The notes under the pieces were generated by a model. That model was not told the DNA's origin. It was given only the letters and a program-made list of their open reading frames with translations, and searched no databases. Both the position numbers and the translations under genes were made by a program. A stretch of DNA of 64,000 bases from Pseudomonas sp. MWU16-30317 (GTDB lineage Bacteria > Pseudomonadota > Gammaproteobacteria > Pseudomonadales > Pseudomonadaceae), in assembly GCF_020515695.1 (NCBI RefSeq), contig NZ_JAIWJA010000001.1:496001-560000 (forward strand), in the 5' to 3' direction. Every line of letters starts with the position of its first letter. Within the stretch, counting starts at the first letter, position 1. Positions 3,812 through 22,092 of this stretch are shown here, one piece after another.

Positions 3812-4013
3812 TCGGGCGGGCAGGGCGGCGCATTCGGATCAGGGCGCTGCCTTGTCACCGGGTTTTTTCTGCCGTGGGCGTCCGCCCAGTTTGCCATTTG
3901 CCCCGTAAACGCACCCTCCGTGGCACCGCTTTTTGCCTCGACCTTTTCATTAATGGCATCATGTGCGCCTTTCGCGCCGCAGGGCGCCGGTTCTGATCTG
4001 GAGAAACGCTGTC

Positions 4014-5408: not shown

Positions 5409-7637
5409 TCAGGTAGCCAATGTGGATTTCAACAAGTCCTCGATCCGCACCGGCAAATCGCGCACCACCACCCCCGTCGCATGGCGCACCGCATCGGTGA
5501 TCGCCGCGCTCACTCCCGCCAGGCCGATCTCGCCGATACCCCGTGCGCCCAACGGATTGAGCGTGGTGTCCGGGTAGTCGAGAAAGGTGATGTCCACCTC
5601 CGGGGCATCGGCATGGGTAGTGACGATGTAATCCGCCAGATTGCTGTTCACCGGCTGCCCGGTGCGAGGGTCGTATTCAGTCGCCTCGAACAGCGCCATG
5701 CCCACGCCCATCATGATCGCGCCCTCGATCTGATTGCGCCCGGTACGCGGGTTGATGACCTTGCCGCCATCGATCACCGTGACCACGCGGTTGACCTTCA
5801 AACGTGCCATCTCCGGCTCCCAGGTGACCTCGACAAAATGCGCGCCGTAGGAGTGGATCGAGAACTTGTCGTCGACGTCCTTGCTGCCGGGTGTCTTGCC
5901 ACTGCCGCTGATGTATTTCATCCGCGCATTGCTCAACAGCTGGCCAACCTCGATACCGCTGGCCGGGTCGCTGCCCTTGGGATAGATGCGCATCCGCGCG
6001 AAGGTCAGCGCCTCGGCCTGCATGCCATGAAACGGCGGATGTTCTTCGATCGCCACGGCAATGGCTGCGTCGATGGCCGCCTGGGTCGCTTCTTGCACCG
6101 CTGGCACCAGCGAACCGGTGGCCATCGAGCCGCCGGACATCGGCCCTGGCGGCAGGCTGCTGTCACCTATGGTCACTTCGATGCGAGTCAGCGGCAGCCC
6201 GGTCAGCTGCGCGACCATCTGCGCCACCACGGTATAGGTGCCGGTGCCGATATCCTGAGTGCCGCTCAGTACCGTGGCGCCGCCCTGGCTGTCGAACTGC
6301 ACGGTCGCCTCGGCGGGCAGCGCCTTGGCCATCCAGGTGCAGGCCGCCATGCCCCAGCCGATCACCACGCCGGCGCCATTGCGCATCGAGCCCGGACGCG
6401 GATCTCGCTGCGCCCAGCCGAAACGCTCGGCACCGGTGGTCAGGCACTCGGTGAGGTGACGCGAGCTGAAGGGCGTGCCGGTGCTTTCATCGGTGGCCGG
6501 CTCATTGATCAGGCGCAGTTGCAGCGGATCGATGTTCAGCGCCACGGCCAGCTCGTTCATGCCCGATTCCAGCGCGTAGAGCCCAGGCACAGCACCCGGC
6601 CCGCGCATCGAGGTGGGCGGAGCGATGTCGCGACGAGCGAACGACCAGGCGGCGCGCAAGTTCGGCGAGCTGTACAGATACCCCGTGGCTTCGCCGCAGT
6701 TTTCCTTGTAGGTGTCCAGCCGCGCGTTGTGAAACAGGTAGTCGTGTTGCACCGACTGCAGCTTGCCACTGGCATCGGCGCTCAGGCGGATACGTTGCTG
6801 GGTGTTGGTGCGGTGGCCGACGTTGTGGAACATCATCTCGCGGTCGACCACCAGCTTGACCGGGCGCTGTAGTTGACGCGCAGCAGCCGCGGCCAGCAGC
6901 GAATGGCTCCACGGCCACAGCTTGCCGCCAAAACCCGAGCCCAGATATTCAGTGATGATGCGCATCTGCTCCGGCGCGACGCCGAGCATTTGCGCCATGA
7001 CCATGCGGTGATTCATGATCGCCTGAGAGGTCTCGTAGAGCGTGAACTCCTTGCCGTTCCACAGGGCGACCGTGGCATGCAGCTCGATCGGATTGTGGGC
7101 GTGGGGTGGCGTGGTGTAGGTGTGGTTGATCTTAACTGGCGCATTGGCGAAGGCCTTGGTCACATCGCCGCGCTCAGTGTCGACCGATTCCTTTTCCTCG
7201 GCGCTCAAACGCATGGACACGTTGGCCTGGTCGGCGGCGTAGCTGACCTTGACCGCCGCGGCGCCCGCCACGGCTTGCTCGTAGGTGTTGGCCACCACCA
7301 GGGCGACGTACTGGCCATAGTAGGTGATACGGTCATCGGCCAGCGGTGGGCGGGCCTCGTCAGTCTTGCCGCCGCCACTTTGCTTGCGGTAGACCTGATC
7401 GCTGAAATTGCCGGAATGGAACACCTGAATGACACCGGGCATCTGCAGCGCTGCCCCAGGGTCGAGGGCGGTGATGCGTCCGGTGGTGATGGTCGCGGTC
7501 ACGGGCACTGCGTGCACCAGGCCCGGGAAGGCGTGGTCGGAGGTGTAGCGGGCCGTGCCGGTGACTTTTTTTGGCCCGTCGATGCGGGTAAAGCCGTGGC
7601 CGATCACGGCCTCGGCGGTGTTGGATACTGGTGCCAT
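5409..7637 (-). CDS. paoC: Periplasmic aldehyde oxidoreductase, molybdenum-binding subunit
   Basis: This 742-residue protein is the large molybdopterin-cytosine-dinucleotide subunit of a xanthine oxidase family enzyme, closest in layout to E. coli PaoC (732 residues). Visible features are TARYTSDHAFPGLVHAVPV near the start, the GSGFGGK cofactor loop, MRGPGAVPG and the C-terminal GIGEIGLAG carrying the catalytic glutamate. The complex oxidises aromatic and other aldehydes to acids. GGAGG precedes the start by five bases. It is the third gene after paoA and paoB, separated from paoB by a REP pair. The substrate is not determined by sequence, and an isoquinoline-oxidoreductase-like role remains possible. 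Confidence 0.85.
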   Translation of the reverse strand: MAPVSNTAEAVIGHGFTRIDGPKKVTGTARYTSDHAFPGLVHAVPVTATITTGRITALDPGAALQMPGVIQVFHSGNFSDQVYRKQSGGGKTDEARPPLADDRITYYGQYVALVVANTYEQAVAGAAAVKVSYAADQANVSMRLSAEEKESVDTERGDVTKAFANAPVKINHTYTTPPHAHNPIELHATVALWNGKEFTLYETSQAIMNHRMVMAQMLGVAPEQMRIITEYLGSGFGGKLWPWSHSLLAAAAARQLQRPVKLVVDREMMFHNVGHRTNTQQRIRLSADASGKLQSVQHDYLFHNARLDTYKENCGEATGYLYSSPNLRAAWSFARRDIAPPTSMRGPGAVPGLYALESGMNELAVALNIDPLQLRLINEPATDESTGTPFSSRHLTECLTTGAERFGWAQRDPRPGSMRNGAGVVIGWGMAACTWMAKALPAEATVQFDSQGGATVLSGTQDIGTGTYTVVAQMVAQLTGLPLTRIEVTIGDSSLPPGPMSGGSMATGSLVPAVQEATQAAIDAAIAVAIEEHPPFHGMQAEALTFARMRIYPKGSDPASGIEVGQLLSNARMKYISGSGKTPGSKDVDDKFSIHSYGAHFVEVTWEPEMARLKVNRVVTVIDGGKVINPRTGRNQIEGAIMMGVGMALFEATEYDPRTGQPVNSNLADYIVTTHADAPEVDITFLDYPDTTLNPLGARGIGEIGLAGVSAAITDAVRHATGVVVRDLPVRIEDLLKSTLAT

Positions 7638-7704
7638 GTGGCCTCCGAGGGTCCGCCGCTCAGGGCGAACTGAATCTTGAATGTGTGCCAGCGGTGAGGA
7701 CCTT

Positions 7705-7784
7705 TTCGCGAGCAGGCTTTACGCCCACAGTGCGCCCAGCTCCAGCGCCGTACAGGTTGGGACCGGGCTTTGCCTGCGATGCGG
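7705..7784. repeat. REP pair (REPIN) inside the pao operon
   Basis: CGCGAGCAGGCTTTACGCCCACAG and the opposed GGGACCGGGCTTTGCCTGCG lie in the 156-base gap between paoB and paoC. The pair would be transcribed within the operon message and could shape relative expression or stability of the large-subunit part. That effect is inference. Confidence 0.7.
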
Positions 7785-7793
7785 CCATACGCT

Positions 7794-8798
7794 TCACGCC
7801 AGGGCTGCAACGTTGGCCAACGCCTGGGCGACGCAGCGCTTGGCCAGCTCGATCTTGAAGCCGTTTTCGCTCTGTGGCTGGGCGCCTTTGACGGCCGCTT
7901 CCGCCGCCAGTTGCCAGCTCGCGGCCGTGTCCGGGGCGCCGATCAATGCCTGCTCGGCAGCCGTGGCGCGCCACGGCTTGGTGCCCACGCCGCCCATGGC
8001 GATTCGTGCGTGACGCACGCGCCCGCCGTCGATCTGCAGCACCACGGCGGCCGAGGCAAGGGCGAATTCATATGAGGCGCGGTCACGCAGTTTCAAGTAG
8101 CCGGAGCGGCTACCGGAGCGCGGAGCCGGCAGCTCGACATGGGTCACCAGATCGCCCGGCTGCAATACGTTCTCCTTTTCCGGGGTATCACCCGGTACCA
8201 GGAAAAACTCGCCAATCGGCACCACGCGCTCGCCATCTCTGCCGCGAATATGCACCTGCGCCTCCAGCGCGGTCAGGGCGACATTCATGTCCGACGGATT
8301 GGTTGCGATGCAATGCTCGCTGGTGCCGAAAATCGCCAAGGTACGGTTGATGCCACCTATCGCCGCGCAACCGCTACCCGGTTCGCGCTTGTTGCAGGGG
8401 CTGTGGTTGTCACGGAAATACGTGCAACGCGTGCGCTGCAGCAGGTTGCCGCCGGTGCTGGCCATGTTGCGCAATTGCGCCGAGGCGCCGGACAGCAGCG
8501 CTTGCGAGAGCACCGCGTACTCTGCCTTGACCGCCGCGTGCTGCGCCAGGTCGCTGTTGCGCACCAGCGCACCCACCTTGAGGCCGCCGCCGCTGACGGC
8601 GCTGACCTCGGCCAGTGGCAGATGATTGATGTCGACCAACTGCTGGGGATATTCGACCCCCAGCTTCATGAGGTCGGTGAGGGTAGTGCCGCCGGCGATG
8701 AAACGCACGCTGGCGCCTTGTTGTGCGGTCTGGCTGGCAAGCCCGAGGCGGATAGCCTGTTCGGCGCTGCTGGCGCGGTTGAAAGCGAATGTCTGCAT
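7794..8798 (-). CDS. paoB: Periplasmic aldehyde oxidoreductase, FAD-binding subunit
   Basis: The 334-residue product is the medium FAD subunit of the PaoABC-type trimer. It shows the FAD motif RFIAGGTTLTDLMKL, LLSGASAQLRNMASTGGNLLQRTRC and a second cysteine cluster (YFRDNHSPCNKREPGSGC). That cluster corresponds to the extra 4Fe-4S site of E. coli PaoB, which ordinary xanthine dehydrogenase FAD subunits lack. The C-terminal CO-dehydrogenase flavoprotein domain contains MGGVGTKPWR. It starts ten bases after the paoA stop, so the two are translationally close. Electrons would pass from molybdenum through 2Fe-2S clusters to FAD and on to an acceptor. Confidence 0.85.
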   Translation of the reverse strand: MQTFAFNRASSAEQAIRLGLASQTAQQGASVRFIAGGTTLTDLMKLGVEYPQQLVDINHLPLAEVSAVSGGGLKVGALVRNSDLAQHAAVKAEYAVLSQALLSGASAQLRNMASTGGNLLQRTRCTYFRDNHSPCNKREPGSGCAAIGGINRTLAIFGTSEHCIATNPSDMNVALTALEAQVHIRGRDGERVVPIGEFFLVPGDTPEKENVLQPGDLVTHVELPAPRSGSRSGYLKLRDRASYEFALASAAVVLQIDGGRVRHARIAMGGVGTKPWRATAAEQALIGAPDTAASWQLAAEAAVKGAQPQSENGFKIELAKRCVAQALANVAALA

Positions 8799-8808
8799 GG
8801 CGGGGGCC

Positions 8809-9453
8809 TCAGGCTTTGCGAGTCTGCTGGATGGCAGCGAGGATGTTGGAGTAGGCGCCGCAACGGCAGATATTGCCGCTCATGGCTTCCTTGATCTCGG
8901 CATCCGAGCCGCCGCAAGGCTCCTTGGCCAGCGCCACTGCGGACATGATCTGGCCGCTGGTGCAATAGCCGCATTGATAAGCGTCGTGCTCGACAAAGGC
9001 CGCCTGCATCGGGTGCATCTCGACTGGGGTGCCGAGGCCTTCGATGGTGGTGATTTCGTCGCCCTCGTGCATCAACGCGAAGCTCAGGCACGAGTTGACC
9101 CGCCGACCGTTGACGTGAACGGTGCAGGCGCCGCATTGGCCATGGTCGCAGCCTTTCTTGGTTCCGGTCAGGTGCAGGCGCTCGCGCAAGGCATCGAGCA
9201 GGGTGGTGCGGGGGTCGACGCGCAAGGTCTGCTGTTTGCCGTTGATCACCAGTTTGAGCGGCTGGCTGCCAGGCTCGATGGGCGCCGCGTCACGGGGATC
9301 GGCGGCGGCTTCGGCCGCCAGCCCGCTGCCAAGTGCCGCTGCGGTGCCGCTTACCCCAATGGCCTGCAGCACTGAGCGCCGCGACATGGGCAGTAGCGGG
9401 GCGCCTGCTTGAGTGCGATCCGGTTCGACGCGTTCGTGGTTCTTCTTGCTCAT
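8809..9453 (-). CDS. paoA: Periplasmic aldehyde oxidoreductase, 2Fe-2S subunit with Tat signal
   Basis: The 214-residue small subunit carries two 2Fe-2S domains: CDHGQCGACT in the plant-ferredoxin-like part and CGYCTSGQ with CRCGAYSNILAAI in the helical part. Its N-terminus has a twin-arginine signal (MSRRSVLQAIGVSGTAAALG), so the assembled complex is exported folded, carrying PaoB and PaoC with it. The ATG at 9453 was chosen because GGAGACC lies about eight bases upstream; an ATG at 9468 has no clear site. It is the first gene of paoABC. No PaoD/XdhC-type cofactor-insertion gene follows in this window, unlike E. coli. Confidence 0.88.
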   Translation of the reverse strand: MSKKNHERVEPDRTQAGAPLLPMSRRSVLQAIGVSGTAAALGSGLAAEAAADPRDAAPIEPGSQPLKLVINGKQQTLRVDPRTTLLDALRERLHLTGTKKGCDHGQCGACTVHVNGRRVNSCLSFALMHEGDEITTIEGLGTPVEMHPMQAAFVEHDAYQCGYCTSGQIMSAVALAKEPCGGSDAEIKEAMSGNICRCGAYSNILAAIQQTRKA

Positions 9454-9518
9454 GCGAGCGGTCTCCATCAGTACGGTAGGGGGCTGTCTGTACCTCTAGC
9501 GGGTACTGAGCGTGCAGT

Positions 9519-9610
9519 TCTGCGGGAACGGGCTCTGCCCGCGAAGCACTTGATTGCGGCTGGCCAACGATGCCGTCAATAGCTTCGCGGGCAGCGCCCG
9601 CTTCCACAGA
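9519..9610. repeat. REP pair (REPIN) between paoA and ligD
   Basis: TGCGGGAACGGGCTCTGCCC and the opposed GCGGGCAGCGCCCGCTTCC form a pair of imperfect palindromes about 35 bases apart in the divergent paoA/ligD gap. The rest of this gap must hold both promoters; none is close to consensus. Confidence 0.75.
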
Positions 9611-9740
9611 TCGTGTCGCGTTGTATGTGTTGGTCACGCAAAACCGTACGGGCGTTCCATCGGATGTCGCCGATCAACGGTTTGAACTCCTGAACGGCTG
9701 CCGATTCGCATGGATATGAAGCCGACAACCGAGGTGGGCG

Positions 9741-12542
9741 ATGAGCGAAGCGCTGCACGACTACAACCAGAAACGCAATTTCGACGCCACGCCCGAGCCT
9801 GCAGGCAGTGCCCGACGCAGCAAGGGCAAGAAGGGCGGCCATGCCTTGCAGTTCTGCATCCAGAAGCATGACGCGAGCCATCTGCACTATGATTTTCGTC
9901 TGGAACTGGACGGCACCATGAAGAGCTGGGCGGTGCCCAAGGGCCCTTCACTGGACCCGAAAGCCAAGCGCCTGGCGGTGCATGTCGAGGATCACCCGCT
10001 CGACTACGCGACCTTCGAAGGCCACATCCCCGAGGGCCACTACGGCGCAGGCGACGTGATCGTCTGGGACCGTGGCGTGTGGATTCCCGAGGGCGATCCG
10101 CAGCAGGGCTACGCCAAGGGCAAGCTCAAGTTCAGCCTGCAGGGCGAGAAGCTGGGGGGGCTGTGGAATCTGGTGCGTACCCATATGCCGGGTCGCAAGC
10201 AGCAGTGGTTTCTGATCAAGCATCAGGACGAACAGGCGCGCTCGCTGGACGACTACGACGTGCTGATCGCCGAGCCCGACAGCGTGCTGAGCGACCGCAC
10301 CTTGGTGCCGAAGGAGCGCGGCAACGGCAAGCGCGCAGCCGCCAAGCCCGATGCCCATGACACAGATAAATCGAGCGCCAAGGCCAGCAGCAATGCCAAG
10401 TCCAGTACCAGGACCAAGACAGCCAAGGCACCCAAGGCGCAGTCTGTGCCCCAAGCCCCGGAGCCTGACACCGCCGCCAAACCTATCGCCACCCCGTCCG
10501 CCGCACCACGCCGCAGCCGCAGCGGCAAACTCGAAGGCGCCCGCAAGGCACCCCTGCCGACCAGCCTCAAGCCGCAACTCGCCACCCTGGTCGACTCGGC
10601 GCCTGCCAGTGGCGACTGGCGCTACGAGATCAAGTTCGATGGCTACCGGGTGCTGGCGCGCATCGAGGGCGACGAGGTGCGACTGTTCACCCGTAATGGC
10701 CACGACTGGACGGCTAAGATGGCGCATCAGGCGCAGGCCTTGGCCGAGCTTGGCCTGAGTTCCGGCTGGCTCGACGGCGAAATGGTGGTGGCCAACGAGC
10801 ACGGCGTGCCGGACTTTCAGGCGCTGCAAAACGCTTTTGAAAGTGAGCGCAGTGAACAGATCGTTTATTACCTGTTCGACGCCCCGTACCTCAATGGCAT
10901 GGACCTCACCGAGGTGCCAGTGGAACAACGCCGTGCAGCGCTGAAAAAACTGCTCAAGACTCACACGAGTGACACGCTGCGCTTCTCGGACGATTTTGAC
11001 GAGGGTGCCGCCTCGCTGCTGGACAGCGCGTGCCAGATGCAGATGGAAGGGCTGATTGGCAAACGCGTCGGCAGCGCCTATCGCTCTCGGCGCAGCCAAG
11101 ACTGGATCAAGCTCAAGTGCAAACATCGTCAGGAATTCGTGGTGGTCGGCTATACCGAGCCGAAGGGCAGCCGCAGCGGTTTCGGTGCGTTGCTGCTGGG
11201 CCTGCACGATCAGGACAGCGGCGAGTTGCGCTACGCCGGCAAGGTCGGCACAGGGTTCAGCGAGGCGACGTTGCGCTCGATTCTGCAGCGTCTGGAGCCG
11301 CTCGAGCGCCGCACCCAAGCCGTCGCCAACCCGCCGACGGGTGCCGATGCCCGAGGCGTGCACTGGTTGGAGCCCAGCTTGCTGGCCGAAGTGGCCTATG
11401 CCGAGATGACCCGCGACGGGGTGGTGCGCCATTCGGTCTTCCATGGCCTGCGCGACGACAAGCCGGCGCGGGATATCACCGCTGAAACGCCCGCTGCGGA
11501 AGCTGTGGCAGCGGCCTCTGCCCGCGAAGCATCTGAATCTTCACAGCGCACACAGCGCAGCGGGCACAGCCCGCTCCCACACAAAAGCGGCAGCAGCAAA
11601 GGCAAAAGCAGCAAAGGCAAAAGCAGCAAAGGCAAAAGCAGCAAAGGCAAAGCCGACAGCAGCCACCTAGTGCGCATCACCCACCCTGATCGCATCATCG
11701 ATGCCAGCAGCGGCACCACCAAGCAGCAGCTCGCCGAATACTACGCCAGCGTCGCCCCCTGGCTGCTCCCGCAACTCAAGGACCGGCCGGTCGCATTGGT
11801 CCGCGCGCCGGACGGCATCTCAGGCGAACTGTTCTTCCAGAAAAACGCCGGTCAACTGGCCATCGACGAGCTGCAGCACTACGACAAGGCCGAAGCCGGG
11901 CAGGCGTGCATGGTGATCAATTCCCCCAAGGCGCTGATCGGCGCGATTCAGATGGGCACCGTCGAACTGCACACCTGGAACGCCACCAGCGCTGACTTCG
12001 CCCACCCGGACCGCTTCGTCCTGGACCTCGATCCGGACCCGGCGCTGCCCTGGAAGGCCATGATCGAGGCGACGCAGCTGACCCTGACTGTTCTTGATGA
12101 GCTGGGCCTCACATCGTTTCTCAAGACCAGCGGTGGCAAGGGTATCCATATCGTCGTGCCGCTCAAGCCCCAGGCCGACTGGGACAGCGTCAAGGATTTC
12201 AGCCACGCCATCGTCAACCATATCGCCAAGCTGGTACCTGAACGCTTCTCGGCAGTGTCCGGCCCCAAGAACCGTGTCGGCAAGATCTTCATCGACTACC
12301 TGCGCAACGGCCTGGGCGCGACCACCGCCTGTGCCTACGCCGCGCGAGCACGCGAAGGCCTGGCGGTCTCGGTGCCGATTGAACGCGATGAAGTTGCGCA
12401 GCTCAAAGGTGCCAGCGAGTGGAACATACACAACGTGCACGAACGTCTGGCCGAGCTGCGGGACGACCCTTGGGCAGACTTCGACAAGTGTCGCCAACGC
12501 ATCACGGCCACCATGCGCAAGCGCCTGGGGCTCAAGGCGTGA
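9741..12542 (+). CDS. ligD: Multifunctional NHEJ DNA ligase LigD
   Basis: The 933-residue protein joins double-strand breaks with Ku. Domain order is phosphoesterase (about 30-190, HDASHLHYDFRLELDG), ATP-dependent ligase (about 275-560, adenylated Lys298 in EIKFDGYR, then the OB fold) and polymerase/primase (about 640-930, metal ligands Asp762 and Asp764 in LDLDPDP). This is the Pseudomonas PE-LIG-POL order. Two low-complexity linkers stand out. Residues 190-255 are rich in Lys, Ala and Ser. Residues 588-635 are encoded by a REPIN followed by four copies of a 15-bp repeat. All catalytic parts look intact. No ku gene lies in the window. Confidence 0.93.
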   Translation: MSEALHDYNQKRNFDATPEPAGSARRSKGKKGGHALQFCIQKHDASHLHYDFRLELDGTMKSWAVPKGPSLDPKAKRLAVHVEDHPLDYATFEGHIPEGHYGAGDVIVWDRGVWIPEGDPQQGYAKGKLKFSLQGEKLGGLWNLVRTHMPGRKQQWFLIKHQDEQARSLDDYDVLIAEPDSVLSDRTLVPKERGNGKRAAAKPDAHDTDKSSAKASSNAKSSTRTKTAKAPKAQSVPQAPEPDTAAKPIATPSAAPRRSRSGKLEGARKAPLPTSLKPQLATLVDSAPASGDWRYEIKFDGYRVLARIEGDEVRLFTRNGHDWTAKMAHQAQALAELGLSSGWLDGEMVVANEHGVPDFQALQNAFESERSEQIVYYLFDAPYLNGMDLTEVPVEQRRAALKKLLKTHTSDTLRFSDDFDEGAASLLDSACQMQMEGLIGKRVGSAYRSRRSQDWIKLKCKHRQEFVVVGYTEPKGSRSGFGALLLGLHDQDSGELRYAGKVGTGFSEATLRSILQRLEPLERRTQAVANPPTGADARGVHWLEPSLLAEVAYAEMTRDGVVRHSVFHGLRDDKPARDITAETPAAEAVAAASAREASESSQRTQRSGHSPLPHKSGSSKGKSSKGKSSKGKSSKGKADSSHLVRITHPDRIIDASSGTTKQQLAEYYASVAPWLLPQLKDRPVALVRAPDGISGELFFQKNAGQLAIDELQHYDKAEAGQACMVINSPKALIGAIQMGTVELHTWNATSADFAHPDRFVLDLDPDPALPWKAMIEATQLTLTVLDELGLTSFLKTSGGKGIHIVVPLKPQADWDSVKDFSHAIVNHIAKLVPERFSAVSGPKNRVGKIFIDYLRNGLGATTACAYAARAREGLAVSVPIERDEVAQLKGASEWNIHNVHERLAELRDDPWADFDKCRQRITATMRKRLGLKA
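11504..11582. repeat. REPIN embedded in frame in the ligD coding sequence
   Basis: TGTGGCAGCGGCCTCTGCCC (left arm start) and CGGGCACAGCCCGCTCCCAC (right arm) are two opposed REP units about 26 bases apart. Apart from two G-to-C changes in the left arm they match the intergenic REPINs of this window. The element is translated as part of the linker between ligase and polymerase domains (residues about 588-614) without a stop. Confidence 0.75.
11592..11651 (+). repeat. 15-bp tandem repeat, four perfect copies, in ligD
   Basis: The unit AGCAGCAAAGGCAAA occurs four times without mismatch and encodes (SSKGK)x4, a basic flexible linker just before the polymerase domain. The unit is a multiple of three, so copy-number change would alter linker length without shifting the frame. 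Confidence 0.9.
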
Positions 12543-12578
12543 GCGTCATCCATCTGGCCTTGATCAAAAGAGAAACCC

Positions 12579-13112
12579 GTGTCGAAGATCATCACCGAAA
12601 CTGTGGCACCCCCTAACGATAGCAACGCCGCCCATATGTTCGGCTCGGCGAAGGACCGCCTGGATTTCTACCGCAAGGAAATCCATTACGAAACCGCGCT
12701 GCTGTCCAACCGCACCAACGCCTACCTGTCGGCGCAGTCGTTCATGGTTATCGCGTTCGCGTCGTCGATGGCCAACCTCAATCCCGAGTGGGGCAAGCTT
12801 TTTACCTTGTTCGTGCCGCCCCTGCTGGCGCTGCTGGGCATCGTCAGTTCGTTGCACGCCTGGCCAGGCATCCGCGCCGCCTACGACATCATCGACCATT
12901 GGCATTTCAAGCAAAGCCAGCTGTTAAGCAGCGAGCCGATCATGGGCATGGCCTACGACGACTCGCCGCTGTTCAGCAGCCACGAGTCCACCGAAAAAGG
13001 CTACGCCAAGTCGCTGCTGTTCTCGCTGCGCACGCCTTGGCTGTTTTCGATTTTCTGGGCCGTGCTGGGGGTGTTTGCCCTCTATGTACAGTTCGGCAAT
13101 CCGGGTGTCTGA
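12579..13112 (+). CDS. Uncharacterised membrane protein
   Basis: The 177-residue product has an N-terminal soluble helical part (residues 20-50), hydrophobic segments around residues 50-62 and 69-90, and a third near the C-terminus (PWLFSIFWAVLGVFALYVQF). It is probably an inner-membrane protein with two or three helices. The GTG at 12579 follows AGAGAAA at a reasonable distance; an internal ATG at residue 20 is possible. It sits 36 bases after ligD on the same strand and may share its transcript. I do not recognise the family and propose no function. Confidence 0.65.
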   Translation: MSKIITETVAPPNDSNAAHMFGSAKDRLDFYRKEIHYETALLSNRTNAYLSAQSFMVIAFASSMANLNPEWGKLFTLFVPPLLALLGIVSSLHAWPGIRAAYDIIDHWHFKQSQLLSSEPIMGMAYDDSPLFSSHESTEKGYAKSLLFSLRTPWLFSIFWAVLGVFALYVQFGNPGV

Positions 13113-13216
13113 AGTCGACGAAATAGATTGAACCCCGATGACGTGAGGATGCCGTAATTCAACAGGCCCGACATTGCGTGGCCGCGATGCGATTCACAAG
13201 GACAGGTGCACGAACC

Positions 13217-14236
13217 ATGAATAGTCAGCTCCCCAAGGACGCGCTTAGCGACTTCGCCCAACGGCCGATTGCGCTCAGTGTCGATGAAAGCCTGCGCCAG
13301 GCCATGCTGCGCTGTATCGATCAACGGCTCACCGAGCTGCCGCTGCCGGGTGACGGCGACACCTTGGGGCGCTGGCAGGTGTTGGCCAAGGTGGCGGGCA
13401 TCGATCTGGCGCTGCTCAAATTGTTCGAAGGTCATACCGATGCCGTCGCCATTCTCGAAGAGCTCGGCGCCAGCGACCTGCAGGCGCCAGGTATCTGGGG
13501 GGTGTGGGCCGCCGAGCCGCCTGATGCCAGAGTGCGGATTACCGAACGCAGCCCCGCCGGCGTGCGCCTGGAGGGCCGCAAGGCCTGGTGTTCGGGCGCA
13601 CTGCAGGTCGATCACGCGCTGTTGACCGCCTGGGATGAGCAGGATGAGCCACAGCTGGTAGCGGTCAAGCTCGATCAGCCGGGCGTGCGCCGTTCAGAGC
13701 AGGGTTGGCAGGCGGTGGGCATGGCCCATACCGCCAGTGTCGATGTGCATTTTGACCACGCGCCGGCCTGCCCCGTAGGCGCCAGCGGTGAATACCTCAG
13801 CCGCCCGGGCTTCTGGCAGGGCGGAGCCGGTATTGCTGCGGCCTGGTATGGCGCGGCTCAGGCGCTGGGAGAATACCTGCGCAGCAGTCGTGGACGCAGC
13901 GACCCGCACGCCGATGCTCACCTGGGGGCCGTGGACGCGGCCTTGTACGGCGCGGCGTCGGCCTTGCGCGAATGCGCGGCGTGGATCGATGCCTATCCAT
14001 TCGATAATGCTCAACTGGCAGTGCAACGTGTCCGAGCGCACGTGGAGGCAGCGGTCGAAACCGTGCTCCACCACGTCGGTCGCGCGCTGGGGGCGGGGCC
14101 TTATTGCCGAAATCCGCACTTCGCCCGATTGATCGCCGACTTGCCGGTGTTCATCCGCCAAAGTCATGCCGAACGCGATCTGGCGGGCCTTGGCCGGCTG
14201 GTCGCGGCGCAGCCTGCCGGGGAGTGGTCGCTATGA
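13217..14236 (+). CDS. Acyl-CoA dehydrogenase-like protein
   Basis: The 339-residue protein has the acyl-CoA dehydrogenase fold: a helical N-terminus, a middle beta domain (WGVWAAEPPDARVRITERS, then GVRLEGRKAWCSGA) and a C-terminal four-helix part with ALGAGPYCRNPHFARLIADLPVFIRQSHAERDL. It is shorter than the usual 380-400 residues. The ATG at 13217 gives a start that fits the domain. The next gene overlaps by four bases, and two more follow closely, making one operon. Since the partners are a deacetylase, a methyltransferase and a glycosyltransferase, it more likely modifies an acyl group on a lipid or glycolipid than serves beta-oxidation. That role is inference. Confidence 0.82.
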   Translation: MNSQLPKDALSDFAQRPIALSVDESLRQAMLRCIDQRLTELPLPGDGDTLGRWQVLAKVAGIDLALLKLFEGHTDAVAILEELGASDLQAPGIWGVWAAEPPDARVRITERSPAGVRLEGRKAWCSGALQVDHALLTAWDEQDEPQLVAVKLDQPGVRRSEQGWQAVGMAHTASVDVHFDHAPACPVGASGEYLSRPGFWQGGAGIAAAWYGAAQALGEYLRSSRGRSDPHADAHLGAVDAALYGAASALRECAAWIDAYPFDNAQLAVQRVRAHVEAAVETVLHHVGRALGAGPYCRNPHFARLIADLPVFIRQSHAERDLAGLGRLVAAQPAGEWSL

Positions 14237-15012
14237 GCCGTGCCAACGTACAGTCCGTGGATGCCCCGTTCGGCGTGGTCGGCACACCCCTGCGGGACTG
14301 GCAGGCGAGCCGGGCGCTGCGCAGGGCTGCGGTGGTGTCCATCGACGAGCTGATTCCCCCGGGCGCGCGGCTGGTGGTAGTCGCGCCGCATCCGGACGAC
14401 GAGATTCTTGCCTGTGGCGGCTTGCTGGCGGCCATGGCCGAACGAGTGGCAGACGTACATTTGATATCGGTAACGGACGGCGACGCTAGCCATCCAGGCT
14501 CCCAGCAATGGCCGGTAGCACGCCTGCGTGCCCAGCGGCGGGTCGAGAGCGAATGCGCCCTGGCGCGCCTTGGCCTGGATCTGTCACGCCTGAGCTGGCA
14601 GCGTCTGGCGTTGCCCGATGCCCGTGTCGCCGAGCATGAAGCGGCGCTGGTGCGTGCCATCAGCGGTAGCCTGCACGCTGGTGACTACGTGCTGGCGACC
14701 TGGTGCCATGACGGCCACGGTGACCACGAAGCAGTGGGCCGCGCCGCAGCTCAGGCGGCGCGAGAGCAGGGTGCGACTCTGCTGGAGGTGCCGGTCTGGG
14801 CCTGGCACTGGGCCCATCCGGAAGACCCGCGGCTGCCCTGGGGGCGAGCCCGCAAGTTGCTGCTCAACGACGATCAGCTTGAACGCAAGCGCGAAGCCAT
14901 TCGCGCCCACACCAGCCAACTGCATGATGACCCCAGTACCGGCGCGCCGCCAGTTCTTGACCGCGCCACATTGGAGCGGCTGCTGCAGCCCTTTGAATTG
15001 GTCTTTACCTGA
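14233..15012 (+). CDS. PIG-L/LmbE family deacetylase
   Basis: The 259-residue product is a zinc-dependent N-deacetylase of the PIG-L/LmbE/MshB type. The zinc motif reads APHPDDE (His53, Asp56) and a later HGDH supplies His165. The family removes acetyl groups from N-acetylglucosamine-containing lipids or small glycosides. The ATG at 14233 overlaps the stop of the dehydrogenase gene (ATGA), so translation is coupled; the frame stays open further upstream, but only inside that gene. A NodS-like methyltransferase and a glycosyltransferase follow, which suggests an amino-sugar conjugate that is deacetylated and then methylated. Confidence 0.85.
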   Translation: MSRANVQSVDAPFGVVGTPLRDWQASRALRRAAVVSIDELIPPGARLVVVAPHPDDEILACGGLLAAMAERVADVHLISVTDGDASHPGSQQWPVARLRAQRRVESECALARLGLDLSRLSWQRLALPDARVAEHEAALVRAISGSLHAGDYVLATWCHDGHGDHEAVGRAAAQAAREQGATLLEVPVWAWHWAHPEDPRLPWGRARKLLLNDDQLERKREAIRAHTSQLHDDPSTGAPPVLDRATLERLLQPFELVFT

Positions 15013-15023
15013 GTGATGCCGAT

Positions 15024-15653
15024 ATGAGTGATGCTGCCATAAGAGATGCCACCGCAAGCGTGCCCGCCGAGTACTTCGATCAGATGTTCGCCGCCAGTGA
15101 TGACCCTTGGGCCTTTCGCACCCGCTGGTATGAGCAGCGCAAGCGCGACCTGACCATGGCCGCCCTGCCGCGTCAGCGTTATGAGCGCGTATTCGAACCG
15201 GCCTGTGCCAACGGCGAGCTTAGCGTGCTGCTGGCCGAGCGCAGCGAGTCGTTGCTGTGCATGGACCTGAGCAGTGACGCGGTGCGCCTGGCGGCGGCAA
15301 GGCTGCGTGAATATTCCGCTGTCGAAGTGGTTCAGGGGCGTTTGCCAGGTGATTGGCCCGGCGGCGAGTTCGACCTGATCGTGCTCAGCGAAGTGGCGTA
15401 TTACCTGTCGCCTGCCGACCTCGCGGCTTTGATCGATCGAGCGGTTGCCAGTCTCAGTCCCGGCGGTGCGCTACTCGCTTGTCACTGGTTGCACCCCATC
15501 GACGGCTGCCCGCAGGATGGCCGGCAGGTGCATGCCATGCTCGATGCGAAGCTGCCGCTGCATCGCGCGGTGCGCCATGAAGAGGCGGATTTTCTCTTGG
15601 AATTCTGGTGCGTACAGCCTTGCGCGATCGATCTCGATGAGGAAGCGCTATGA
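15024..15653 (+). CDS. NodS-like SAM-dependent methyltransferase
   Basis: The 209-residue protein has a class I methyltransferase fold. Motif I is VFEPACANGELSVLLAE, with an acidic end to strand 2 (CMDLS). The N-terminal YFDQMFAASDDPWAFRTRWYE is typical of the NodS family, which N-methylates the deacetylated terminal glucosamine of rhizobial lipochitooligosaccharides. It begins 11 bases after the deacetylase gene and overlaps the glycosyltransferase gene by four bases. The family match is good. The substrate is unknown, and no chitin synthase (NodC) or acyltransferase (NodA) is present, so this is not a Nod-factor locus. Confidence 0.83.
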   Translation: MSDAAIRDATASVPAEYFDQMFAASDDPWAFRTRWYEQRKRDLTMAALPRQRYERVFEPACANGELSVLLAERSESLLCMDLSSDAVRLAAARLREYSAVEVVQGRLPGDWPGGEFDLIVLSEVAYYLSPADLAALIDRAVASLSPGGALLACHWLHPIDGCPQDGRQVHAMLDAKLPLHRAVRHEEADFLLEFWCVQPCAIDLDEEAL

Positions 15654-16312
15654 TCGGCGTTATCGTCCCCGCCCATAACGAGCAGGATCTCCTGCCGTAT
15701 TGCCTCGAGTCCCTGCATATCGCCGCCCGTCATCCGGGCCTCGGCGGCGAAGCCGTGGAGATCCTCGTGGTGCTGGACAGCTGCGATGACCAGTCGGGCA
15801 AGGTCGCGCGCGGCTTCGATGCGCTGACCCTGTCGATCAGCGCGCGCAACGTCGGCCATGCACGACGGGTGGGCGCTGCGTGCATGCTGTCACGGGGTGC
15901 GCGCTGGCTGGCCTGCACCGACGCCGACAGCCAGGTGCCCGCCGACTGGCTGATGCAGCAATTGGCGTTCAAGGCCGATGTGGTCTGTGGCACGGTGCAG
16001 GTGCTGGATTGGGAGAACCACGGCGTGGATATCCAGGCGCGGTATCTGGATGGCTATCAAGCCCGTGAGGACCACCGGCACATCCATGGCGCCAATCTGG
16101 GGATCTGTGCCAAGGCTTACCGTCGCGCCGGGGGCTTCAAGCCGCTCACGGCGCACGAGGATGTCGGTTTGGTGCAGGCGTTGGAGCGCAGTGGGGCGAA
16201 GATCGTCTGGACGGCACTCAACAGTGTGAGCACCAGCGCCCGTTCCGATCCACGGGCGCGGGAGGGGTTTGGGGATTATCTGAAATCGCTGGCGGTGGCG
16301 GCGGTGGTCTGA
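15650..16312 (+). CDS. Glycosyltransferase family 2
   Basis: The 220-residue protein starts directly with the GT-A nucleotide-binding fold (IGVIVPAHNEQDLLPYCLESL) and carries the metal motif TDADSQ and a later HEDVGLVQALE. It is short and has no membrane helices, so it is probably cytoplasmic or peripheral. It is the last gene of the four-gene operon and overlaps the methyltransferase gene by four bases (ATGA). Donor sugar and acceptor cannot be read from sequence. Together with the deacetylase and methyltransferase it probably builds and tailors a small glycoside or glycolipid. Confidence 0.85.
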   Translation: MIGVIVPAHNEQDLLPYCLESLHIAARHPGLGGEAVEILVVLDSCDDQSGKVARGFDALTLSISARNVGHARRVGAACMLSRGARWLACTDADSQVPADWLMQQLAFKADVVCGTVQVLDWENHGVDIQARYLDGYQAREDHRHIHGANLGICAKAYRRAGGFKPLTAHEDVGLVQALERSGAKIVWTALNSVSTSARSDPRAREGFGDYLKSLAVAAVV

Positions 16313-16897: not shown

Positions 16898-17935
16898 TTA
16901 TGGCGCTGGGTTCGGTTGTTCGACGTGGATCGCTTCCAGCCCGGCCAGCACTTCTGGCGACAACACCAGATCGATGCTCTTCAGGTTGCTTTCCAACTGC
17001 TCCAGCGTCGTGGCACCAATGATGTTGCTGGTCACGAATGGCTGCCCGGTGACGAACGCCAAGGCCATCTGGGCCGGGTCCAGCCCATGTTCGCGGGCTA
17101 GCGCCACATAGGCTGCGGCGGCGCGGTCGGTCTGCGGGTTGTTGTAACGCTGGAAGCGATCGAACAGGGTCAAACGGCCCTTGGCTGGACGCGCACCATT
17201 GAGGTATTTGCCCGCCAGCACACCGAAGGCCAGCGGCGAATACGCCAACAGGCCGATCTGCTCGCGAATGGCGATTTCAGCCAGGCCCACTTCGAAGCTG
17301 CGGTTGACCAGGTTGTAGGGGTTCTGGATCGATACAGCCCGCGGCCAGCCACGGGTTTCGGCCAGGTGCAGGAAGCGCTGAGTGCCCCATGGGGTCTCGT
17401 TGGACAAACCGATATGGCGGATCTTGCCGGCCTTGACCTGCTCGTCGAGCACCTCGAGCGTCTCCTCGATGGCGGTGAACTCGTCTTCCAGATGATGCTG
17501 GTAGTTGAGTTGCCCGAAGAAGTTGGTCTTGCGATCAGGCCAATGCAACTGGTACAGGTCCAGGTAATCGGTGTTCAGGCGCTTGAGGCTGGCATCCAGC
17601 GCAGCGGGGATGTTCTTGCGGTCGAGCCGTGGATTGCCGTCGCGGATGTGGGCCATACGGCCGGGGCCGGCGACCTTGCTGGCGAGGATCCAGTCGGCAC
17701 GGTCGCCATGCTGCTTGAAGTATTCACCGATATAGCGCTCGGTGGTCGCGTAGGTCTCGCCGTTGGGCGGTACCGGATACATCTCGGCGGTGTCCATGAA
17801 ATTGACACCGGCGGCCTTGGCCAGACGGATCTGTTCGAAGGCTTCGGCCTGGGTGTTCTGCTCACCCCAGGTCATGGTACCGAGGGCGATGGCGCTGACG
17901 TTGATATCCGTCTTGCCAAGGGGACGAAACTGCAT
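16898..17935 (-). CDS. tas: NADP(H)-dependent aldo-keto reductase, Tas family
   Basis: The 345-residue protein matches the size and layout of E. coli Tas (346 residues). The barrel begins MQFRPLGKTDINVSAIALGT. Catalytic-type residues lie in FMDTAEMYPVPP (Asp and Tyr), and LYQLHWPDR and IQNPYNLVNRSFE follow. Family members reduce aldehydes and ketones with NADPH in the cytoplasm. The ATG at 17935 has AAGGAAG upstream; the open frame extends 35 codons further but with no sequence resembling the family. It faces the exopolysaccharide locus on the same strand with a 114-base gap and is probably independent of it. Confidence 0.88.
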   Translation of the reverse strand: MQFRPLGKTDINVSAIALGTMTWGEQNTQAEAFEQIRLAKAAGVNFMDTAEMYPVPPNGETYATTERYIGEYFKQHGDRADWILASKVAGPGRMAHIRDGNPRLDRKNIPAALDASLKRLNTDYLDLYQLHWPDRKTNFFGQLNYQHHLEDEFTAIEETLEVLDEQVKAGKIRHIGLSNETPWGTQRFLHLAETRGWPRAVSIQNPYNLVNRSFEVGLAEIAIREQIGLLAYSPLAFGVLAGKYLNGARPAKGRLTLFDRFQRYNNPQTDRAAAAYVALAREHGLDPAQMALAFVTGQPFVTSNIIGATTLEQLESNLKSIDLVLSPEVLAGLEAIHVEQPNPAP

Positions 17936-18049: not shown

Positions 18050-19441
18050 TCAATAGATATTTTTCGAAAACAGTGTGAACGGCGTCTTCACCAGGATCTT
18101 GATGTCCAGCCACAACGACCACTGGTTGATGTAGTTCAGGTCCTGGGCCACGCGTTGCTGCATCTTTTCCAACGTCTCGGTCTCGCCGCGGTGCCCAGTG
18201 ATCTGGGCCAGCCCGGTGATGCCGGGTTTGAGGCGGTGGCGGGCCATGTAGGCTTCGACCTTGCCGGTGTAATACAGGTTGTGGGTCACAGCATGCGGGC
18301 GCGGGCCGACCAGGGCCATCTCGCCGAACAGCACGTTGAACAACTGCGGCAATTCATCGATAGAGCTGCGACGCAGAAAGGCGCCAACGCGGGTAATGCG
18401 GTCATCGGTGCGGGTGGCCTGGCGTACTTCGCTGTCGTCATGCACGCGCATCGAGCGGAATTTCCACACCTTGATCACTTCACCGTTACAACCGTGGCGA
18501 TTCTGCTTGAACAGCACCGGGCCAGGGGAGGACAGCTTGACCGCAATGGATGCGCCGATCAGCAGCGGGCTGAGAGCAACGATTGCCAGCGCGGCCAGGG
18601 TGCGTTCCATCAATTCCTTGCCCAGCAGGGCGGCAGGGTGGGAACTGATCGGGCTTTCGTTGAGGTAAATGGCCGGCATCCGTTCGATCTCGGAAATCGA
18701 CTGGTTGAGCAGCATCATACTGCCGAAGTCCGGAATCCAGACCACGTCGACGCTCATGTCCAGCAGGTCGATGTACAGGCCTTCGATGGTCGCCAGTTGC
18801 GCCAGCGGCAGGGCGATGTACACGCGCCGGACCTCTTCGCGCACGATGATATCGCGCAACTCGTCGACATTGCCGAGCAGCGGCAAGGTAGTAGGCACCA
18901 GGCCGTTTTCGCCGGAGGCAGCGATAAAGCCGATGACCGGCACGCGGTTGGGCGTTGTCAGTTTTTTCGCCAGCGCATCGGCCATGGGGCTGATGCCGAT
19001 GATCACCGAACGACGCTCATTGCGTACCTTGCGCGAGTGCATACGCGCCAGATAGTGCAGCGGCAGGAAGCTGGCCACTTGCGCCAGATAGCCCAGCCCG
19101 ACCCAGAGCATGATCACTTGGCGGGAAAACACTGCGGTGGTCTGGGTCAGGAAGGCAATGGCGATCAACGCGCCGAGCAGGCTCATCCAACCCGCCAGCA
19201 AGCGGCCCATGCCCGACAGGATGCCGTGACGTTTGTGGTAGACCTGCAGGAAGCTGTAGGCCGGCACTGAACCCAGCACGGTCAGAATCATCGCCACGCG
19301 GTATTCGCTGGCGACGGTGCCGACCTGATCCCACACCAGCATGATCAGCACCAGATTGGCCAAGGCCATGCCGCAGGCCCATTGGCTCCAGAAAGTCAGG
19401 CCTTTGCGGTGTGTTGCGCGACTTGTGTATTGCGAAGTCAT
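18050..19441 (-). CDS. Undecaprenyl-phosphate sugar phosphotransferase (initiating enzyme)
   Basis: The 463-residue inner-membrane protein belongs to the WcaJ/PslA/GumD group that transfers a sugar-1-phosphate, usually glucose, to undecaprenyl phosphate to start each repeat unit. About four N-terminal helices and a Rossmann-like middle precede the C-terminal bacterial sugar-transferase domain (from about 275). Its marks are KVWKFRSMRVH, RRSSIDELPQLFNVL, GPRPHAV and KPGITGLAQI. The start at 19441 has GGAGACC upstream. It is the last gene of the locus but has its own 381-base leader holding a hairpin and an ops element, so it is probably expressed partly on its own. Confidence 0.9.
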   Translation of the reverse strand: MTSQYTSRATHRKGLTFWSQWACGMALANLVLIMLVWDQVGTVASEYRVAMILTVLGSVPAYSFLQVYHKRHGILSGMGRLLAGWMSLLGALIAIAFLTQTTAVFSRQVIMLWVGLGYLAQVASFLPLHYLARMHSRKVRNERRSVIIGISPMADALAKKLTTPNRVPVIGFIAASGENGLVPTTLPLLGNVDELRDIIVREEVRRVYIALPLAQLATIEGLYIDLLDMSVDVVWIPDFGSMMLLNQSISEIERMPAIYLNESPISSHPAALLGKELMERTLAALAIVALSPLLIGASIAVKLSSPGPVLFKQNRHGCNGEVIKVWKFRSMRVHDDSEVRQATRTDDRITRVGAFLRRSSIDELPQLFNVLFGEMALVGPRPHAVTHNLYYTGKVEAYMARHRLKPGITGLAQITGHRGETETLEKMQQRVAQDLNYINQWSLWLDIKILVKTPFTLFSKNIY

Positions 19442-19581
19442 AGTCTGGTCTCCGACACGTAGGGCTGTCCTGATCACGGCGCACAAAATTGCGCGCACTT
19501 TCCCGCCATGCTGAAAAACAGCACGGTTTGAAAGGAAGTTATGAGGGGCGTTCAGCGCAGGGCTGCCGAACGGGTAAACGC

Positions 19582-19822: not shown

Positions 19823-20947
19823 TCAGGTCGCCTGCCGAGGGCGCAGTTTGGCTTTTTGGGCAAACATCAGCGTCGAGAGTAAGTGGTTGCTGCGACAGAC
19901 ATAGTAAAGGGCGATGGAAGTGCTGATCGCGATGACATAGGCAGCACAACCGACACTGACTTCCGAGTGCAACCAGCGCGGGAGTACCCGCAACATCGTG
20001 TATAGCACTGGCGCATGGAAAATCAGAATGAACAAACTGACTCGGCCGAAGTAACCGAAAAATCTTGATATGTACGCTGACTTCGAAAGAAAGAAGCACA
20101 GACACAACATCACGTAGATGCCGAACAGTGCTTCGATCGGTGTAAGCAACAGGTCGTCATAGAGTCGGCCATTCAAGTCCAGCTTGAGTGGGAACGCTTG
20201 ACGCAGGAGGATCAGGCACATCAAGGCAGCTATCGCCTGCAACGGGCTCGGCTGCAAGTTTCTGATCCGCGTTGACAGGAAGTGTCCGGAAAAAAAGAAG
20301 AAACTGGTGATCAACAGCAAGTCGGCACTGAACGGCAGACCGCACTCGAACAGGTGCAGGGTGAAGTTGAGCTGCTTGATGCACAGGTCGTTCTGGTAAG
20401 GCGTGTCGAACAGGTGCACGAGATAGAAGCCGCCGGCGGCGCACAAGCCCAACAAGGTGATCTTGGCCAATGCCGTAGTCAGCCAGTTCTGGGCAACGAT
20501 CAATACCGCCGCGCTGCAGCTATACACCAGCCATAAATGCGGCAGAAACCACAGAGGCGGCCACGCGAGGGTGAAGCCCGCACCAAAGCTCAGGCCGACC
20601 AGCAGGTTTTCCAGGCTGGCGGTACCCGCGAGTATCTTCGCCATGCCAACGAAAATGATCACCACCGCGCACGGTTTGAGCCACGCATCAGCGCGCTCCA
20701 TGATGATCCGCCGCAGATTGCCATCGCCCAGTGATAGGGTGACCCCCGAAACGAAGAAGAAAAACGGCAAGCGGAAGGAGGTCAGGGTGCGGGCAAACAG
20801 GTCGAAGTTGTCAACGAACAGTGTGTTATGGCCCAGAACGATCAGCAAAATGCCAAGACCTTTGGCAATATCGATCATCGGTAGGCGAAGCTGAATGCGT
20901 CGGTTCACAAGAACTGCGGGCTCGGCTAAAACCGACGATTGAGACAT
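19823..20947 (-). CDS. Membrane acyltransferase (acyltransferase 3 family)
   Basis: The 374-residue integral membrane protein has about ten helices and the family's opening pattern (MIDIAKGLGILLIVLGHN, with the active-site-like histidine) followed by RLPFFFFVSGVTLS. Such enzymes O-acylate, most often O-acetylate, polysaccharide repeat units at the inner membrane. AGGAA lies nine bases before the ATG. It is one of four such genes in this locus, which suggests a heavily substituted polymer. The acceptor sugar and the acyl donor cannot be read from sequence. Confidence 0.85.
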   Translation of the reverse strand: MSQSSVLAEPAVLVNRRIQLRLPMIDIAKGLGILLIVLGHNTLFVDNFDLFARTLTSFRLPFFFFVSGVTLSLGDGNLRRIIMERADAWLKPCAVVIIFVGMAKILAGTASLENLLVGLSFGAGFTLAWPPLWFLPHLWLVYSCSAAVLIVAQNWLTTALAKITLLGLCAAGGFYLVHLFDTPYQNDLCIKQLNFTLHLFECGLPFSADLLLITSFFFFSGHFLSTRIRNLQPSPLQAIAALMCLILLRQAFPLKLDLNGRLYDDLLLTPIEALFGIYVMLCLCFFLSKSAYISRFFGYFGRVSLFILIFHAPVLYTMLRVLPRWLHSEVSVGCAAYVIAISTSIALYYVCRSNHLLSTLMFAQKAKLRPRQAT

Positions 20948-20981: not shown

Positions 20982-21938
20982 CTAGAGGATGACTTTAAGG
21001 CGCTTGTTTATTTTGATGAGGAAAAACGATGCAATCAGCGACAGCCCCAGAATGACAAACGTCAGGCGGGTGCCATCCATATCAAACAGGCGCAGACAAG
21101 CGAGCAAAAAGAATATATGCACAAAGTAGATGCCCGCGCTGTACAAAGACAAGTTTTTGCTGCCCCCCTGGATATTCATTTTCAATGTGCAGATGAATAC
21201 CGCAGGGCACACCAGTATCAATGACGCCATGTTGTCGAAGCCAGTGTCATTTGCCAGATTGCGGAAGTTCAACCAAGACTCTGCAATCAGCGACACCAGC
21301 CCCACGCACGCAGCCGCCACTGCGACGGACAGCGTGATCTGGCGATGAAGCGAAAACTTGTTGATGAAGTAGCCAATGCAAAAGAAAGGGAACGCACTGA
21401 ACAGGAAATTTCGATGGCTCCAGCTGTCGGTCAGAATCCTGTCAATGTTTTGATCATCCAACCACTGATAGCTGGCACTGTATTGCAGTAAGGTGCCGAT
21501 ACTGTAAGCAAGAATCACCAGCGTTGCCACCCAGGGCCATCGCCAATCGCGCATCAGCGTCATCATCAGTGCCGCGCCGATCACTCCGGCCACATACCAC
21601 AGGTGGTAATACCCGAGAAAGATGATCAGCAGCATCCGCCCTAGCTCTTCGAATGACCAGGCGCTCGGTCGGAACCAGAAATAGGCGTAGAACATCATCC
21701 AGAACGCGTACAGCATCAAGACCCGTTTGAGCCAGCGTGCGTGCGTATCTCCGGCCAGCGCCTGGTAGAAATAGAAGCCGCTGGTAAGGAAGAAGATGGG
21801 CACCGCCATGCGGAAAACTCCGTTGACAGTCAGGTATTCGGCCAGCGAGTTGATATCTCGGAGAAAGTACGTATGGATGCCGACGACCATCATGGCCAGC
21901 ACCACTTTCAAAATGTCCAAAGCAATGTTACGCGTCAA
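20982..21938 (-). CDS. Membrane acyltransferase (acyltransferase 3 family), TTG start
   Basis: The product is a 318-residue polytopic membrane protein. It begins TRNIALDILKVVLAMMVVGIH, the usual start of acyltransferase 3 proteins, with MAVPIFFLTSGFYFY after it. The TTG at 21938 was chosen because AAGGAG lies eight bases upstream and the domain starts there. An open frame extends 39 codons further to a GTG at 22055 with no ribosome-binding site and an unrelated-looking N-terminus. It should acylate the exopolysaccharide or its lipid-linked repeat unit. Confidence 0.78.
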   Translation of the reverse strand: MTRNIALDILKVVLAMMVVGIHTYFLRDINSLAEYLTVNGVFRMAVPIFFLTSGFYFYQALAGDTHARWLKRVLMLYAFWMMFYAYFWFRPSAWSFEELGRMLLIIFLGYYHLWYVAGVIGAALMMTLMRDWRWPWVATLVILAYSIGTLLQYSASYQWLDDQNIDRILTDSWSHRNFLFSAFPFFCIGYFINKFSLHRQITLSVAVAAACVGLVSLIAESWLNFRNLANDTGFDNMASLILVCPAVFICTLKMNIQGGSKNLSLYSAGIYFVHIFFLLACLRLFDMDGTRLTFVILGLSLIASFFLIKINKRLKVIL

Positions 21939-22092
21939 GTGACGACTCCTTGGAGCGATCAGGATGTACGACTTGTCCTCAAAGCGTGGCCGCAAGTGCT
22001 TGACTGCAAGCTCTTGGTTGTACAGCGCGCATGAAGTCATTGCCAGGATCGGCACAGCCGAGTCCCGGACTGGCAGTTTCGTTATTGTCGGG

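Follow-up and report, generated by a model that had tools for sequence, protein, structure and literature searches.

A conserved four-gene operon of Pseudomonas with a NodS-like methyltransferase and a possible stress-linked, N-methylated amino-sugar product

In the terminal tailoring of Nod factors, NodB deacetylates an N-acetyl amino sugar and NodS N-methylates it. In the bacillithiol and mycothiol pathways a PIG-L protein (BshB or MshB) acts after a glycosyltransferase, yielding a stress-protective small molecule. N-hydroxylation has been described among group D flavin monooxygenases, in the available portions of two papers (PMC6165268; PMC5481743). A four-gene operon of Pseudomonas sp. MWU16-30317, lying in a 64,000-nucleotide stretch of contig NZ_JAIWJA010000001.1 (positions 496,001 to 560,000; here the window), resembles each of these systems in part. 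It encodes a flavoprotein of the acyl-CoA dehydrogenase (ACAD) fold, a PIG-L deacetylase, a NodS-like methyltransferase and a family 2 glycosyltransferase (GT2). Within the genus the four genes form one co-occurring unit that is kept or lost nearly whole. With a probability put at about 0.5, their enzymes act on one molecule and make a stress-linked N-methylated hexosaminyl compound that is possibly also N-oxygenated.

The four open reading frames occupy 13217-16312 of the window, with ATGA overlaps at 14233-14236 and 15650-15653 and an 11-base gap (15013-15023) between the PIG-L and methyltransferase frames; the coordinates thus bear out the coupling described in an initial annotation of this DNA. 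An alternative upstream GTG start of the ACAD frame at 13178 is possible. Each of the four families was searched separately in the same 119 sampled genomes of the genus and the positions were then compared, with a second type of PIG-L (type 2) excluded by hand from the PIG-L count. All four were found together in the same 76 genomes, contiguous in 63 and split yet complete in 13 (GT2 apart in 12, PIG-L in one), and a detached GT2 lay within 10 kb in 3 of the 12. Methyltransferase and GT2 occupy identical sets of 76 genomes, the ACAD protein is found in 77 (as a fragment in G076, in two pieces in G052 and G080) and the operon-type PIG-L in 78 (in pieces in G052), so that beyond the 76 only three genomes carry a stray member: PIG-L in G007 and G027, and the ACAD fragment in G076. 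Related genomes are not independent, and therefore no probability is claimed for this co-occurrence. Among 40 Pseudomonas loci hand-picked from the genus search matches, 26 contain the ACAD gene, and 17 of these hold all four genes in the window order, with neighbouring genes overlapping by up to 52 bases or lying up to 13 bases apart at script-predicted starts.

Detached GT2 genes were also considered as a clue to the acceptor, in 12 loci comprising nine detached GT2s, two second copies and one ACAD-methyltransferase-GT2 locus. They were set aside, having no common neighbour except a GT7C-type glycosyltransferase (L215; below cut-off in L221). Where the detached GT2 is no more than 10 kb away (three genomes), it adjoins a gene of 443-463 amino acids, which in L021 encodes an Nramp transporter.

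The methyltransferase exceeds the Pfam cut-off for NodS (44.4 bits against 24) and scores 50.5 bits against the cut-off of 300 of the NCBIfam NodS equivalog model. Its PDB profile matches begin with 4isc, of the same family (2.7e-85), followed by NodS itself (3ofj, 4.9e-18) and then by a match at 2.2e-6; by sequence profile, NodS is its nearest characterised relative. The GT2 protein scores 51.1 bits (cut-off 23.3) with the generic Pfam GT2 model only and contains no hydrophobic span, its maximal 19-residue hydropathy being 1.10. Its predicted structure is of the GT-A type, with fold matches near WrtF and the GlcNAc transferases TarP and TarS. Further evidence that these activities belong together comes from fusion proteins retrieved with the operon methyltransferase profile from other classes of the phylum, three of which (L117, L118, L120) join GT2, a NodS-type methyltransferase and a polysaccharide deacetylase in a single polypeptide; a fourth (L126) joins methyltransferase and deacetylase without a Pfam GT2 match. 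The same three activities as in the operon are thus present, but with a NodB-type polysaccharide deacetylase replacing PIG-L, and no ACAD partner was found in the fusion loci with the Pseudomonas ACAD profile. The L118 fusion gene sits among GT2 genes, adjoining an ABC transporter. That the four genes serve one pathway, as had been proposed, is upheld by these natural fusions and by the joint presence of the four in genomes that keep them apart.

The deacetylase reaches 90.5 bits with Pfam PIG-L (cut-off 28.2) and has no Pfam match to NodB-type polysaccharide deacetylases; its top PDB profile match is a diacetylchitobiose deacetylase (5e-12). The motif PHPDDE is intact in all 28 type-1 Pseudomonas copies of at least 200 residues, and in loci beyond Pseudomonas HPDDE is kept in 41 of 44 and the downstream pattern DHxx[VAT] in 24 of 44. 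The pairing of PIG-L with a glycosyltransferase is shared with the bacillithiol and mycothiol pathways, whose glycosyltransferase belongs to another family than the operon GT2, and the operon has an additional methyltransferase and flavoprotein. A thiol of this type was rejected as the product, the scores falling far under the NCBIfam equivalog cut-offs (BshB1 46.9 against 182.5, BshB2 36.2 against 195.25 and MshB 23.9 against 224.35 bits). A second PIG-L paralogue, 43-49% identical, adjoins glgX (L027-L030, L033-L040, L047-L049, L060), even where the operon is missing, and carries PHPGDE in 16 of 16 copies, having lost the first Asp of HPDDE, the general base in MshB. To judge from this motif, it is probably a pseudo-deacetylase that belongs to the trehalose locus.

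With NodS and diacetylchitobiose deacetylase as the nearest matches, the likeness to Nod-factor tailoring noted earlier holds: a NodS-family methyltransferase stands beside an amino-sugar deacetylase and a GT2. The operon differs in having PIG-L in place of NodB, a short soluble GT2 of 220 residues and not a NodC-type membrane chitin synthase, an added ACAD-fold flavoprotein and a stress-gene setting. Neither NodA nor a chitin synthase, as the initial annotation had also stated, is present among the four genes and three tested neighbours (ligD, 12579-13112 and 16898-17932), the part of the genome searched for them.

The flavoprotein is the member whose family label fared least well. Whereas PIG-L, NodS and GT2 pass their Pfam thresholds, the name acyl-CoA dehydrogenase derives from the middle domain only (Acyl-CoA_dh_M), at 27.6 bits under a cut-off of 33.3, although more distant relatives such as that of Deinococcus (L127) exceed the cut-offs of the N- and C-terminal domains. 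The PDB profile ranking is led by DszC (9.3e-27), TdsC (2.4e-23) and MsuC (1.3e-22), followed at about 5e-20 by 5z8t and 5gj7, named as acyl-CoA dehydrogenase type 2 domain proteins; the sugar N-oxygenase KijD3 (1.6e-18), within the ten best profile matches, is level with the dehydrogenase MmgC (3.2e-18). Because the group D monooxygenases DszC, TdsC and MsuC are nearest in sequence profile, the acyl-CoA dehydrogenase name is doubtful. The structure model (predicted local distance difference test score 83) has the ACAD fold, and most of its top-ranked structure matches are dehydrogenases. Fold comparison was dropped as a discriminator, dehydrogenase and monooxygenase classes being tied, as was profile-alignment length, since TdsC, KijD3 and DnmZ end where the dehydrogenases end. 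Acyl-CoA dehydrogenases have a catalytic glutamate near the C-terminus; in the operon family DLxx[YF]xRQ is invariant near the C-terminus in 37 of 37 aligned rows, and a Glu or Asp at position 319, present in all 37, could serve in that role. Group D flavin monooxygenases, among them the sugar N-oxygenases KijD3 and DnmZ, have the ACAD fold in common with the operon protein and supply its best PDB profile matches. It differs from them in being shorter (339 residues) and in an invariant Arg aligned to His391 of DszC. As to the separate flavin reductase partner of this group, family models detected none among the operon genes, where the search was made.

In the scheme proposed, GT2 would attach an N-acetylhexosamine to an acceptor and PIG-L would strip the acetyl group from the transferred sugar. 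The nitrogen so exposed would be methylated by the NodS-like enzyme, and oxidation of the product, perhaps at the same nitrogen, would fall to the flavoprotein. That the transferred N-acetylhexosamine is first deacetylated and then N-methylated is the most economical reading because of the NodS and deacetylase matches and the fusions of GT2, NodS-type methyltransferase and deacetylase. For the donor sugar, the acceptor, the order of steps, N- over O-methylation, the flavoprotein reaction, and the location and role of the product, this is what we infer, and oxidation at nitrogen would be its boldest step. One candidate for the acceptor, suggested by gene neighbourhood alone, is a non-reducing disaccharide, for example trehalose. 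The product would likely be a cytosolic compound deployed in a stress programme against drying, osmotic or oxidative damage.

Neighbouring genes point in the same direction. Of the 26 Pseudomonas ACAD loci, 15 lie beside treY and glgX and seven beside ligD (in one of these, L024, ligD is only a 213-residue piece directly before ACAD), with neither in four. In a protein tree the glgX-linked and ligD-linked copies are mostly separate, the glgX side being weakly supported (72/36), and the window copy groups with three loci adjoining neither; in the window's own genome glgX is on other contigs. In P. syringae and P. aeruginosa the trehalose operon ends at glgX in the available portions of the published accounts (PMC8982409; PMC3591346; PMC8084333).

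A regulatory link was sought in promoter motifs. An EcfG-type sequence, GGAAC-N15-17-CGTT, precedes the GT2 match by no more than about 300 bases in 10 of 28 convergent-GT2 loci, with 0.005 expected in each; these loci are mostly alphaproteobacterial, and five of the ten are from Ancylobacter. Before ACAD the exact EcfG motif was found in one of 78 loci, and with one -10 mismatch in 13 of 78 against about 3.7 expected. In the window no AlgU-like promoter was found within two mismatches at 9400-9760, 12400-12600 or 13050-13230. The available part of a study of Sphingomonas melonis gives the EcfG motif as GGAAC-N17-20-GTT and a regulon with Ku, treZ, glgX, catalase, CO-dehydrogenase-like genes, a glycosyltransferase run and an exopolysaccharide gene; that part of the text names none of the operon genes (PMC6599016). 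The CO-dehydrogenase-like genes listed there (PMC6599016) parallel a PaoABC-like molybdenum aldehyde oxidoreductase at 5409-9468 of the window, divergent from ligD. The stress link is supported because ligD/Ku, treY-glgX, otsAB, sucrose-phosphate synthase and catalase recur as neighbours and an EcfG-type motif is present. Thus the stress-linked part of the earlier description of the region beside ligD stands, whereas "accessory" understates a set found whole in 76 of 119 genomes.

Outside the genus the operon methyltransferase is widespread but patchy, with profile matches in 6 of 274 genomes of the class and 31 of 299 of the phylum, both counts including at least the window genome. All four families are present in 15 of 32 loci retrieved from outside the genus, and the set recurs elsewhere in the class, in Alphaproteobacteria and in Nostoc, and partly in Deinococcus (no search was dedicated to Actinobacteria). 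Rarity of the four-family combination, which would have counted against the initial annotation, is therefore not borne out: the families recur together in distant lineages, and 17 of the 26 Pseudomonas ACAD loci keep the window order. Plasmid records of Bradyrhizobium, Komagataeibacter, Sulfitobacter, Sphingobium and Paracoccus contain ACAD, PIG-L and methyltransferase with an adjacent glycosyltransferase; the Bradyrhizobium set adjoins Ku and ligD, and those of Sulfitobacter and Sphingobium adjoin catalase. A Methylobacterium plasmid carries ACAD by itself. Deinococcus radiodurans has ACAD-PIG-L, with the methyltransferase 2.8 kb further on and no GT2 match at the locus; its ACAD protein (L127:6543-8882) is 779 residues long, the first approximately 420 having no Pfam match. 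Elsewhere, otsA-otsB is found in L107, sucrose-phosphate synthase/phosphatase in L109 and treY in L104.

A scan of named genomes by ACAD motif returned at least 585 relatives, of which 80 loci were retained. Within 5 kb of ACAD these have the methyltransferase in 65, PIG-L in 37, GT2 in 36 and all in 34. The 80 loci also hold ligD in six cases, Ku in three, catalase in two and glgX in one. Loci of the Methylobacterium type without PIG-L might have represented a deacetylation-free pathway; this was ruled out for nine of ten genomes tested, which keep a PIG-L elsewhere (64-71% identical), while the tenth (L186) has none. A LigD-type 3'-phosphoesterase piece directly precedes ACAD in four Methylobacteriaceae loci (L141, L143, L146, L147; 155-172 bits, 115 in L146), being in L146 a 166-residue gene between GT2 and ACAD.

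Table 1. Operon genes and nearest upstream neighbours, in window coordinates
Feature	Position	Strand	Details
ACAD-fold flavoprotein; "acyl-CoA dehydrogenase" by name, profile nearest group D flavin monooxygenases	13217..14236	+	339 aa from ATG
PIG-L/LmbE-type N-deacetylase, type 1, PHPDDE and downstream Asp-His motif	14233..15012	+	259 aa; Pfam PIG-L
NodS-like S-adenosylmethionine-dependent methyltransferase	15024..15653	+	209 aa; Pfam NodS
Small GT2 glycosyltransferase without membrane-spanning stretch	15650..16312	+	220 aa; Pfam GT2
Small membrane protein, weak 8xMP match, between ligD and operon	12579..13112	+	Pfam 8xMP 25.2 bits, cut-off 30; hydropathy 2.16
ligD, DNA ligase D; recurrent genomic neighbour, outside pathway	9741..12542	+	TIGR02776 750 bits

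In the window a single gene, that for the small membrane protein of Table 1, intervenes between ligD and the operon; it is treated as a neighbour and, at most, as a candidate member of the pathway. A stand-alone AroA-type EPSP synthase (338 bits, model cut-off 287) is encoded at 3963-5273. The segment 18050-22055, on the strand opposite to the operon, is probably an exopolysaccharide locus, in which a WcaJ-type sugar transferase at 18050-19498 is followed by two frames (19823-20947 and 20982-22055) that by eye resemble membrane acyltransferases and are regarded as putative. A defence function was considered and rejected, PADLOC having yielded only the methyltransferase (15024-15653), matched to part of the MADS protein mad2 at 5.9e-18.

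The best placed of the alternatives, though itself improbable, is that the operon modifies a polysaccharide or lipopolysaccharide of the cell surface, with GT2, PIG-L and the methyltransferase building a terminal N-methyl-hexosamine cap that the flavoprotein oxidises. Additional glycosyltransferases adjoin the set in Sphingobium and some other loci, the L118 fusion has the glycosyltransferase and transporter neighbours described above, the window contains the WcaJ-type gene, and the S. melonis EcfG regulon includes a glycosyltransferase run and an exopolysaccharide gene (PMC6599016). However, family models detected no flippase, polymerase or polyprenyl sugar transferase among the operon genes, GT2 has no membrane stretch, an aldo-keto reductase gene intervenes before the WcaJ-type gene, which is on the opposite strand, and trehalose or ligD genes are the neighbours in 22 of the 26 Pseudomonas ACAD loci.

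It is less probable still that the four are individually useful stress enzymes, held together by co-regulation and not by one pathway. The generic nature of the neighbouring stress genes would fit such a set, as would partners lying apart in 13 of the 76 genomes and at many loci of Methylobacterium, but separated partners are retained, leaving strays in three genomes only, and other proteins unite GT2, methyltransferase and deacetylase by fusion. Least probable is a Nod-factor-like lipid, the product first suggested, in which an N-acylated amino sugar has its acyl chain modified by the acyl-CoA dehydrogenase: the NodS and deacetylase analogues, the fold of the flavoprotein with its many dehydrogenase structure matches, and the putative membrane acyltransferases of the window speak for it, but neither NodA nor chitin synthase nor, by Pfam and NCBIfam models, any other acyltransferase is found among the four genes and three tested neighbours, and the flavoprotein profile favours group D monooxygenases. 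The amino-sugar part of that suggestion thus stands, as proposed chemistry, whereas the modified acyl chain is unsupported because of the flavoprotein profile and the lack of an acyltransferase among the seven genes tested.

In summary, the gene set is real, conserved and, as far as literature searches can tell, undescribed; these searches returned no paper on the four-gene set and no assigned product, in agreement with the initial annotation. A broader proposal, tentative and rather doubtful as a whole, is that one undescribed stress metabolite is common to Proteobacteria, Deinococcus and Nostoc: a hexosaminyl glycoside, both N-methylated and N-oxygenated, whose core might be trehalose or some other non-reducing disaccharide. 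GT2, PIG-L, the NodS-like methyltransferase and a group D flavoenzyme acting on sugars would make it, and cells would use it alongside trehalose, non-homologous end-joining repair and catalase as part of their general stress response. Within one genus the set is kept or lost nearly whole, it recurs in several phyla, and it accompanies genes that help cells to survive drying, salt and double-strand breaks; such a pattern points to an undescribed stress metabolite. If this is true, at least 585 motif relatives now named acyl-CoA dehydrogenase would leave fatty-acid metabolism.

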